Below, piece by piece: positions 3,265 through 6,355 of a stretch of DNA of 64,000 nt. A program made the translations under genes and the position numbers. Numbering within the stretch: the stretch's first letter is position 1; every line of letters begins with the position of its first letter. A model generated the notes under the pieces. That model worked only from the letters and a program-made list of their open reading frames with translations, was not told where the DNA came from and searched no databases. The DNA is from Candidatus Syntrophopropionicum ammoniitolerans (GTDB taxonomy: Bacteria > Bacillota > Desulfotomaculia > Desulfotomaculales > Pelotomaculaceae), in contig JABMJD010000001.1 in NCBI GenBank assembly GCA_013201395.1, positions 62,001 to 126,000 on the forward strand, written 5' to 3'.

Positions 3265-4389
3265 GTGGTCAATGCCAAAAGGATAGTGGAAGAGTTTTTT
3301 GAATTGGTTCAGATCGATAGCGTATCCGGCAAGGAACGGCGGATAGCGGACTTACTCAAGAAAAAACTGGCTGCTCTGGGCCTAGAGGTGTTTGAGGACG
3401 GGGCCGGCCGGAAGGTGGGTTCCGATACCGGTAATATTATTGCCAAAATGCCGGGCAGCGGTAGTGGCCCGGTGCTCATGCTTTGTGCTCATATGGATAC
3501 GGTGGAGCCGGGCAGTGGGATTAAGCCCCGCATAGAAGGTGATGTGATCCGTTCCGCCGGTGACACTGTGCTGGGGGCTGATGATAAAGCCGGTATAGTG
3601 ACCATTTTAGAAGTTTTACGGGTGATCCGGGAGCAAAACATTAACCATAGCGGCCTGGAGGTTGTTTTTACCATCTGGGAAGAAGGAGGGCTATTTGGGG
3701 CCAAAAACCTTGATTTTAGTCAGCTGGAAGCCAGGGTTGGTTTTGTTCTTGATGGTGATGGTTCACCGGGTTCTATTATTGTCAAGGCCCCGTCCCAGGA
3801 TCGGATTGGGGCCACGATTAGAGGCCGGGCGGCCCATGCGGGAATAAATCCGGAAGATGGTATTAATGCCATCCAGGTAGCCGCACACGCCATAGCGCAA
3901 ATGAGATTAGGCCGCATAGATCATGAAACTACCAGTAATATCGGTGTGATTACCGGTGGGAAAGCTACCAATATAGTGCCGGCAAGCGTTACCCTGGACG
4001 GTGAAACCAGGAGCCTGGACAGCTATAAGCGTGAAACCCTCACTACCGCTATGTGCGGGCTGATTAAAAAAACGGCCGTCAAATTCGGCGCCGGTGTGGA
4101 TATAGTGACGGAAACAGTCTATGAAGGTTATGATCTAGACGCCGATTCTCCGCCTGTACAGCTGGCCGTTGAGGCTGCTTCCAGGCTGGGACTAACAGCC
4201 AGCCGGGAAAAAACGGGGGGCGGTAGTGACGCTAATGTATTCAACTGTAACGGAATTGAGACCACTGTGCTGGGCATCGGCATGAAAAAGGTGCATACCA
4301 CAGAGGAGTATATCGCCTTAAAGGATATGTACCAAAACGCCGTTTATTTGCTGGAAATAGTAAAATCTGCCCAGAAGAGAGCACGCTAG
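3265..4389 (+). CDS. M20/M42-family metallopeptidase (tripeptidase/PepT-like)
   Basis: A 374-residue cytosolic zinc aminopeptidase of the M20 PepT-like group, similar in layout to Bacillus YqjE. Metal ligands are visible: H in CAHMDTV near residue 74, D in LGADDKAG, the catalytic EE in WEEGG, D in DGDG and a late H in KKVHTTEEY. The dimerisation domain lies in the middle (RGRAAHAG). It probably trims short peptides. The start is a GTG preceded by AAGGTGG. The stop overlaps by four bases the stop of the minus-strand mciZ-like gene, so the two converge. Confidence 0.85.
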   Translation: MVNAKRIVEEFFELVQIDSVSGKERRIADLLKKKLAALGLEVFEDGAGRKVGSDTGNIIAKMPGSGSGPVLMLCAHMDTVEPGSGIKPRIEGDVIRSAGDTVLGADDKAGIVTILEVLRVIREQNINHSGLEVVFTIWEEGGLFGAKNLDFSQLEARVGFVLDGDGSPGSIIVKAPSQDRIGATIRGRAAHAGINPEDGINAIQVAAHAIAQMRLGRIDHETTSNIGVITGGKATNIVPASVTLDGETRSLDSYKRETLTTAMCGLIKKTAVKFGAGVDIVTETVYEGYDLDADSPPVQLAVEAASRLGLTASREKTGGGSDANVFNCNGIETTVLGIGMKKVHTTEEYIALKDMYQNAVYLLEIVKSAQKRAR

Positions 4390-4514
4390 TTAAACATTTC
4401 CATAATTAGCTCCCTGACAGTCCGGTGCCTGTTTTTGTAATGAATAAGCAGCTCCCGGACTTCTTTTATCCTGCCACAGATAAACAGTCCCTCATTTTGG
4501 ATGTAAATCTTCAT
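4386..4514 (-). CDS. mciZ: MciZ-like small FtsZ-ring inhibitor, 42 aa
   Basis: A 42-codon minus-strand gene with a strong ribosome site (GGGGAGGTG, 4520-4528) before its ATG. The protein begins MKIYIQNEGLFICGR and continues with KEVRELLIHY. A short beta-strand, then G[KR]..E[IV]R..L..Y and a basic-amphipathic helix match the layout of Bacillus MciZ, a 40-residue sporulation peptide that caps FtsZ filaments and blocks Z-ring formation in the mother cell. As I recall, mciZ in Bacillus also lies near spoIIM and xerD, as here. It is too short for most gene finders. The homology is my reading of pattern and context and needs a profile search. Confidence 0.75.
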   Translation of the reverse strand: MKIYIQNEGLFICGRIKEVRELLIHYKNRHRTVRELIMEMFN

Positions 4515-4656
4515 AAATTGCACCTCCCCGTGATCCTTTTCCCTTTAACTGCGAGCCTGTTTAATATATGAGCCGGGGGTGGGGTTTATACCGGCTTGGA
4601 AAGGTTTTGTTTGCTTCTGTACAGAGTGAATATGAAAAACATCCCCCTGGCCGTTA

Positions 4657-4687
4657 GTCATAATGTTTTAGGCTCGGCCATAAAAAT
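4657..4687 (+). promoter_or_regulatory. Putative sigma-E promoter of spoIIM
   Basis: GTCATAAT (4657-4664), 14 bases, then CATAAAAAT (4679-4687). The Bacillus sigma-E consensus is about GTCATATT, 14 bases, CATACAAT. The match and spacing are good, and spoIIM is a classic sigma-E gene. No start-site data are available. Confidence 0.6.
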
Positions 4688-4747
4688 AAACAGCAACAGC
4701 AAATACCTAATAATAATATGCTCGTGCAGGCAAAGGGGGGTAAAAGG

Positions 4748-5377
4748 ATGGGCAACAGGCTCCTGCTTCTCTGGGCCGGTTCCCTCCGGCAGAGCTGGCC
4801 TGCCTATTTGCTAATTTTGCTTCTGTTTGCCCTGGGCCTGGCACTAGGGGTTTATGGCGCCCAGAGGTTACATGGCGATCAGGTGCAGGAATTGGGCTTG
4901 TTTCTGGATCAGTTTATGATCCAGGCGGGTACGATGGAGATCGATGCCATAAAAGCCCTGCAAGATTTCTTTTATCGGCATGTCGTGGTCATAGTGGCGG
5001 TTTATCTCCTGGGTATTACGGTAATAGGTATCCCGGTGATACTGGGGATAATAGTAACCCGTGGTTTTGTGCTGGGATATACGGTCAGCTTTTTAGCCGG
5101 CACAAAGGGTGCCCAGGGGATTGCCTTAATCTGTGCCGCTGTTTTGCCCCAAAACCTGATTCTGATCCCCGCTCTTTTGCTGGCCGGGGTGGCGGCACTG
5201 TCCTTTGCCGTGCTGCTGATCAGAAGATTTAATAACTCGGCTCTAACCATCTGGCCCAGTTTTGTCGGGTATAGCGGTCTTGCTATTGTGGTTTTGCTCT
5301 GTGTGGCAGCAGCAGGTCTGATAGAGGTTTATTTGACACCATACTTGGTGCGGTTGGCGGCAAATTATATTTTTTAA
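4748..5377 (+). CDS. spoIIM: Stage II sporulation protein M
   Basis: A 209-residue membrane protein with an N-terminal transmembrane helix (LLILLLFALGLALGVYGA), a short extracytoplasmic part and about four more helices, the SpoIIM/DUF95 plan. SpoIIM scaffolds the SpoIIDMP peptidoglycan-degrading machine that drives engulfment of the forespore. The ATG at 4748 follows AAGGGGGG with 7-base spacing; an upstream in-frame start at 4718 would lie before the ribosome site. A sigma-E-like promoter sits about 60 bases upstream and a hairpin terminator follows the gene. Confidence 0.88.
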   Translation: MGNRLLLLWAGSLRQSWPAYLLILLLFALGLALGVYGAQRLHGDQVQELGLFLDQFMIQAGTMEIDAIKALQDFFYRHVVVIVAVYLLGITVIGIPVILGIIVTRGFVLGYTVSFLAGTKGAQGIALICAAVLPQNLILIPALLLAGVAALSFAVLLIRRFNNSALTIWPSFVGYSGLAIVVLLCVAAAGLIEVYLTPYLVRLAANYIF

Positions 5378-5420
5378 AAAATGGTCTGGTGGTATTTTTA
5401 TTTTGTAAAGGAATGTTCCG

Positions 5421-5454
5421 ACCCATGTGGAAGAAGAAACATGGGTTTGTTTTC
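5421..5454 (+). terminator. Intrinsic terminator after spoIIM
   Basis: ACCCATGT (5421-5428) pairs perfectly with ACATGGGT (5439-5446) over a 10-base loop and is followed by TTGTTTTC. It lies between spoIIM and xerD, so xerD may depend partly on read-through. Confidence 0.65.
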
Positions 5455-5470
5455 TATAAGGGGTAAAAAA

Positions 5471-6355
5471 ATGGATCAACTCGTAGATGAATTTTTATAT
5501 CATTTGACAGTGGAACGTGGTTTAGCCGAAAATACGCTGCAATCCTACCAGTCGGATCTGACCGCTTACCTGGCATTTTTGCGCCAGGAGGAAATAAATT
5601 GTCTGGAGCAGGCGGATCGGAATATGGTGATGACCTATATTTACCGGTTGCAATTAAAAGGGCGCTCACCGGCAACGATATCCCGCCGCCTGGCTTCATT
5701 GCGCTCATTTTACAAATTCCTAATTAGAGAAGAACTGCTGGAACGGGATCCGACTACGGATCTGGAATCGCCCAAACAGCGCCAGAAACTGCCCCGGGTG
5801 CTTACCATTGAGGAAGTGGACCTGCTGCTGAAACAACCCAAAACTGAGGAGCCGGCCGGTTTAAGGGATCGGGCTATGTTTGAGCTCCTGTACGCTACCG
5901 GAATAAGGGTTTCTGAGCTGGTTTCCCTGAACCTGGATCAGGTTCATATTGATCATGGCTTTATCCGTTGTTTTGGCAAAGGCGAGAAGGAACGAATTGT
6001 GCCCCTGGGCGACATAGCTGCCCGTTATCTGCGGGAATATCTGGCCCGGGGCAGGTGCAAACTGGTCAGAAGGAATAACCCTTCGTTTTTTTTGAACCAT
6101 CATGGTAGAAGGTTAACCAGACAGGGTTTTTGGAAAATCATTAAAAAACATGCCCGCCTGGCAGGGATTGCCAAGGATGTGACACCCCACACTATCAGAC
6201 ATTCCTTTGCCACCCACCTGCTGGAAAATGGTGCCGATATCCGGTCGGTGCAGGCCATGCTGGGCCATGCCGATATCAGCACTACGCAAATATATACCCA
6301 TCTTACCAGGAACAAATTGAAAGATATTTATGACCGGACCCACCCCAGGGCTTGA
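5471..6355 (+). CDS. xerD: Tyrosine recombinase XerD
   Basis: A 294-residue tyrosine recombinase. The N-terminal SAM-like DNA-binding domain covers about residues 1-85 and the catalytic domain follows, with R (ATGIRVSEL), K (CFGKGEKER), HTIRHSFATHLL, H in LGHADISTTQ and the nucleophile Y in QIYTH. With XerC it resolves chromosome dimers at dif. The ATG at 5471 has AAGGGG 6-7 bases upstream; earlier in-frame starts run through the spoIIM terminator. The spoIIM-xerD-deoB-pdp-dacF order is conserved in sporulating Firmicutes, which favours XerD over XerC. A second Xer protein is encoded at 38963. Confidence 0.9.
   Translation: MDQLVDEFLYHLTVERGLAENTLQSYQSDLTAYLAFLRQEEINCLEQADRNMVMTYIYRLQLKGRSPATISRRLASLRSFYKFLIREELLERDPTTDLESPKQRQKLPRVLTIEEVDLLLKQPKTEEPAGLRDRAMFELLYATGIRVSELVSLNLDQVHIDHGFIRCFGKGEKERIVPLGDIAARYLREYLARGRCKLVRRNNPSFFLNHHGRRLTRQGFWKIIKKHARLAGIAKDVTPHTIRHSFATHLLENGADIRSVQAMLGHADISTTQIYTHLTRNKLKDIYDRTHPRA

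Follow-up and report, generated by a model that had tools for sequence, protein, structure and literature searches.

A diverged mciZ gene adjoining spoIIM in Candidatus Syntrophopropionicum ammoniitolerans, with counterparts in many spore-forming Bacillota

In Bacillus subtilis, the small peptide MciZ shares the task of blocking a second polar division with SpoIID, SpoIIM and SpoIIP (PMC6126333, PMC8192124). Its hairpin completes the FtsZ sheet (PMC4929429), and the C-terminal polymerisation face of FtsZ is the target of SulA and MinC as well (PMC11938149). Within the open-access literature, we found MciZ described only for B. subtilis and other Bacillus species; a search there for MciZ in clostridial sporulation gave nothing relevant (most subscription papers were beyond its scope), and MciZ goes unmentioned in the main text of a 2012 survey that covered the sporulation genes of Bacilli and Clostridia. 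Public databases may already list some clostridial matches via the Pfam family PF13072 (MciZ). Here, we report that an open reading frame (ORF) in a 64,000-nucleotide stretch of the genome of the anaerobic spore-former Candidatus Syntrophopropionicum ammoniitolerans (the window, to which all coordinates refer) is a real MciZ gene, and that it belongs to the known family rather than to a new one.

The ORF lies on the minus strand (4386–4514), where an ATG at 4514 and a TAG ending at 4386 delimit 42 codons plus stop, encoding the peptide MKIYIQNEGLFICGRIKEVRELLIHYKNRHRTVRELIMEMFN, as read from the window. A ribosome-binding site, GGGGAGGTG (4521–4529, minus strand), can be read directly six nucleotides ahead of the ATG, in agreement with an earlier note on this DNA that had proposed a 42-codon gene with a strong ribosome site, and most relatives likewise have a Shine-Dalgarno-like sequence ahead of the start. 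A longer version beginning at a GTG at 4523 was rejected because this codon falls within the ribosome site. On the opposite strand, a gene for an M20/M42-type peptidase (3265–4389, plus strand), identified by Pfam and by its conserved synteny, ends at 4389, so that the two genes overlap by four bases; these form a CTAG palindrome (4386–4389) that supplies each strand with its own TAG stop. The four shared bases had been correctly noted; of the accompanying description of the gene as antisense and convergent to the peptidase gene, the convergence holds, while antisense overstates an overlap of four bases. No RNA family was matched at the locus in an Rfam scan.

The reading frame is protein-coding and under purifying selection. 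Across 21 members of the organism's own family, synonymous divergence is greater than nonsynonymous divergence, with a median Ka/Ks of 0.31, and differences are most frequent at the third codon position, followed by the first and the second (0.49, 0.30 and 0.23, respectively).

Profile searches place the peptide in the MciZ family. PF13072 scores 24.7 bits against it, above the cut-off of 22.2, aligning residues 1–35 with profile positions 1–35 of 37; the ORF is the sole match in its own genome, and of the 14 control genomes, B. subtilis alone gives a match. Conversely, a profile constructed from 27 relatives within the class, without any Bacillus sequence, retrieved from 177,635 PDB sequences two chains of B. 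subtilis MciZ as its best two matches, 2mrw (1.6e-6) and 4u39_J (5.6e-6), and also matched a Bacillus-type genome (G372) at 1.5e-9. The profile search that the earlier note had named as a check was thus positive in both directions. When compared pairwise with the B. subtilis peptide, the sequence of which is printed in PMC5045927, the window peptide has just 10 identical residues, with a score of 43 that nevertheless exceeds all of 2000 shuffles (mean 9, sd 4.2); across the phylum, only G14, L23 and T32 are nearly invariant. A single-peptide phmmer search of the PDB missed MciZ and returned zinc-finger noise only, an NCBIfam scan of the peptide gave no match, and a weak Pfam zinc-finger match (PF23225) was dropped as it lay below its cut-off. 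Given the low identity and the phmmer miss, FtsZ binding cannot be assumed to be conserved residue by residue. No sequence relation to SulA or MinC was found.

The predicted structure resembles that of FtsZ-bound MciZ. An AlphaFold model of the peptide (pLDDT 92) consists of a hairpin and two helices (strands at residues 2–6 and 9–13, helices at 16–29 and 33–41); the input was a 67-row alignment that included three Bacillus-type sequences, so that the fold is not fully independent of the known family. When this model was compared with the PDB using Foldseek, the only credible match was 4u39_J, the MciZ chain of the FtsZ:MciZ crystal (probability 0.98, TM 0.73/0.83, rmsd 1.4 Å over 36 columns), with an E-value of 0.25 that is weak, as expected at 42 residues. 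The MciZ layout that had been claimed for the peptide is supported by its length, its predicted hairpin and two helices, and this fold match. The FtsZ encoded by the same genome is identical to B. subtilis FtsZ at 78 of 109 positions across the C-terminal domain.

Upstream of the gene, also on the minus strand, we identified by motif match a putative promoter consisting of a -10 element, CATATATT (4563–4570), 48 nucleotides upstream of the ATG, and a -35 element, GTATAAA (4585–4591; GGCATAATC in near relatives), with 16 nucleotides between ATA and CATA. In B. subtilis, sigma-E promoters have ATA and CATA boxes at this spacing. The strict form of this sigma-E-type motif occurs only three times in the window, both strands included, and the putative mciZ promoter is one of these. 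It was detected upstream of mciZ in 55 of 100 relatives, compared with a mean of 0.73 (maximum 3) in dinucleotide shuffles, and is thus absent in about half of them; as a background, 45 of 11,126 windows taken at random contained it, as did 20 of 642 regions ahead of other long ORFs in these loci. By group, the counts are 12/22 for the organism's own family, 10/21 for the remaining families of its class and 33/58 for relatives outside the class. A sigma-70-type site was looked for just upstream of mciZ on the minus strand, and none was found. Facing the other way, a candidate sigma-E-like promoter for spoIIM (4658–4686, plus strand), with TCATAATG and CATAAAAA separated by the same 16 nucleotides between ATA and CATA, fits the pattern more loosely than the strict motif.

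The gene downstream of that promoter, spoIIM (4718–5377, plus strand; PF01944, 7.6e-24), is the divergent neighbor of mciZ, and is followed by a gene for an XerC/D-type tyrosine recombinase (xerD-type; 5381–6355, plus strand) and a deoB-like phosphopentomutase gene. The likely true start of spoIIM is the ATG at 4748, behind AAAGGGGGG and 10 codons downstream of the start of the longest ORF (4718). That mciZ adjoins spoIIM and xerD, as previously stated, was borne out by Pfam assignments and by conserved synteny: of 71 fetched mciZ loci spread over the phylum, 66 contain one or more of the genes spoIIM, xerD, deoB, pdp and the peptidase gene within the fetched stretch, in a relative orientation like that of the window. 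The conserved neighborhood extends to Bacillus-type loci. In one of these (L080), where genes without a domain scan were named from their sequences, mciZ lies between NUDIX and aldo/keto reductase genes, and spoIIM, a Fur-like gene and xerD are found farther out, an order that agrees with the B. subtilis arrangement, nudF-mciZ-yqkF. Synteny that includes a Bacillus-type locus points to a single ancestral locus from which these genes descend.

The class profile detects mciZ in 22 of the 25 genomes that belong to the organism's own family and in 61 of 113 across the class. Among 398 Bacillota genomes, mciZ was found in 15 by Pfam, in 68 by the class profile and in 106 by a phylum profile, although the last count is not independent for the many of these genomes whose sequences the phylum profile includes; the difference between 15 and 106 indicates that the majority of clostridial mciZ genes probably go unannotated at present. 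The nearest named related loci are from Pelotomaculum and Desulfotomaculaceae genomes, including P. propionicicum MGP, so that the host is of this lineage and not, as had been suggested, Clostridium-like in the sense of Clostridium proper.

The gene co-occurs with the sporulation gene spoIIGA, which the genome studied here also carries. The class profile found mciZ in 68 of 338 genomes with spoIIGA versus none of 60 lacking a spoIIGA match above the cut-off (Fisher p = 5e-6, an optimistic value owing to the shared ancestry of the genomes). With the phylum profile, two carriers had no spoIIGA match (G300 and G394), both of them fragmented assemblies of one family. One near-complete member of the organism's own family (G015, locus L157), assembled as a single 3.03 Mb contig, retains spoIIGA, spoIIM and the peptidase gene without any trace of mciZ between the last two. 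This is a clean loss, and mciZ is consequently not essential there. The absence of mciZ from two further assemblies (G001 and G003) is uninformative, since spoIIM is also missing from them.

Several relatives have variant frames. In three loci of one genus (L004, L007 and L008, from G018, G010 and G022), a GTA codon occupies the position at which mciZ starts in relatives, and the frame is open upstream, with an in-frame ATG 15–22 codons earlier; these genes may encode an N-terminally extended peptide or use an unusual start. In family f66 (genus g181; L086, L119, L122, L133 and L136), mciZ-like frames run on to 89–104 residues with similar tails, reflecting either overlap with the opposite-strand neighbor or a longer variant. 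In family f81 (L101, L106, L118 and L135), the mciZ-like peptides begin directly in the first strand and have 37–38 residues in three of four cases; the genes adjoin spoIIM and a gene resembling xerD, the identity of which is no higher than about 40%.

We consider it highly probable (about 0.88) that this genuine mciZ is transcribed by sigma-E in the mother cell and that its product caps FtsZ against a second division, an action proposed by analogy with B. subtilis MciZ. After formation of the polar septum, mother-cell RNA polymerase carrying sigma-E would transcribe mciZ and, divergently, spoIIM. The beta-hairpin of the 42-residue peptide would join the C-terminal FtsZ sheet near H10/S9 and obstruct one polymerisation face, capping would shorten the filaments, and the mother cell would thereby be kept from dividing again. 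SpoIIM, together with SpoIID and SpoIIP, would serve the same purpose by acting on septal peptidoglycan, and would drive engulfment, so that the divergent pair would place two brakes on a second division under adjacent sigma-E promoters.

It is also conceivable, but unlikely, that the gene is a descendant of mciZ made in sporulation whose partner or role has drifted, toward another division protein or a different face of FtsZ. Such drift would be in keeping with the large divergence from B. subtilis MciZ, with its 10 identical residues, and with the near-invariance of only G14, L23 and T32 across the phylum; however, the predicted fold matches FtsZ-bound MciZ, the C-terminal domain of FtsZ is well conserved, and promoter, synteny and co-occurrence with spoIIGA are unchanged.

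As the upstream sigma-E-type motif is a consensus match only, a genuine mciZ might instead be expressed outside sporulation, slowing division during vegetative growth or stress. We regard this as very improbable in view of the enrichment of the motif across relatives, the absence of mciZ from spoIIGA-less genomes when searched with the class profile, and the lack of a sigma-70-type site immediately ahead of the gene on its own strand. Less probable still, to the point of being negligible, is that so short an ORF, which converges on the peptidase gene, is open by chance, or that its transcript serves purely as antisense RNA on that gene: conservation at the codon level (Ka/Ks 0.31) already refutes this reading, MciZ profiles match in both directions, the gene is at the same place in dozens of genomes, the overlap is only four bases, and no Rfam family was found.

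Beyond this genome, we think it fairly likely that mciZ belongs to the ancestral sporulation genes of the Bacillota, as a spoIIM-linked FtsZ cap under sigma-E control. Vertical inheritance would have carried it into both Clostridia-type and Bacillus-type spore-formers, with losses in some lineages, and its length of only about 40 codons, together with a Pfam model tuned to Bacillus, would have kept it from being recognized. Since so many spore-forming relatives have mciZ in the same place, this division brake probably has an earlier origin and a wider distribution than its naming after Bacillus would imply. What stands out is the breadth of its distribution and its linkage to spoIIM, and its position across many Bacillota families suggests that direct inhibition of FtsZ in the mother cell was part of an early sporulation program. 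Anaerobic spore-formers thereby gain a concrete candidate for the block to a second septum, and the case illustrates how small, diverged developmental genes escape annotation.

Compared with the described systems, the gene most closely resembles that of B. subtilis MciZ (PF13072; 2mrw, 4u39_J), with which it shares its length (42 residues here, 40 there), the hairpin and two helices, a sigma-E-type promoter motif and a spoIIM/xerD/deoB neighborhood, although only 10 residues are identical. In the window, spoIIM and the peptidase gene are the immediate neighbors of mciZ, whereas in Bacillus-type genomes several genes, a NUDIX gene among them, intervene between mciZ and spoIIM. SulA and MinC, like MciZ, are FtsZ antagonists at the same C-terminal polymerisation face (PMC11938149), but are larger folded proteins with other regulation. 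SpoIID, SpoIIM and SpoIIP are likewise sigma-E products directed against a second polar division in B. subtilis (PMC6126333, PMC8192124); in contrast to MciZ, their target is septal peptidoglycan and not FtsZ.
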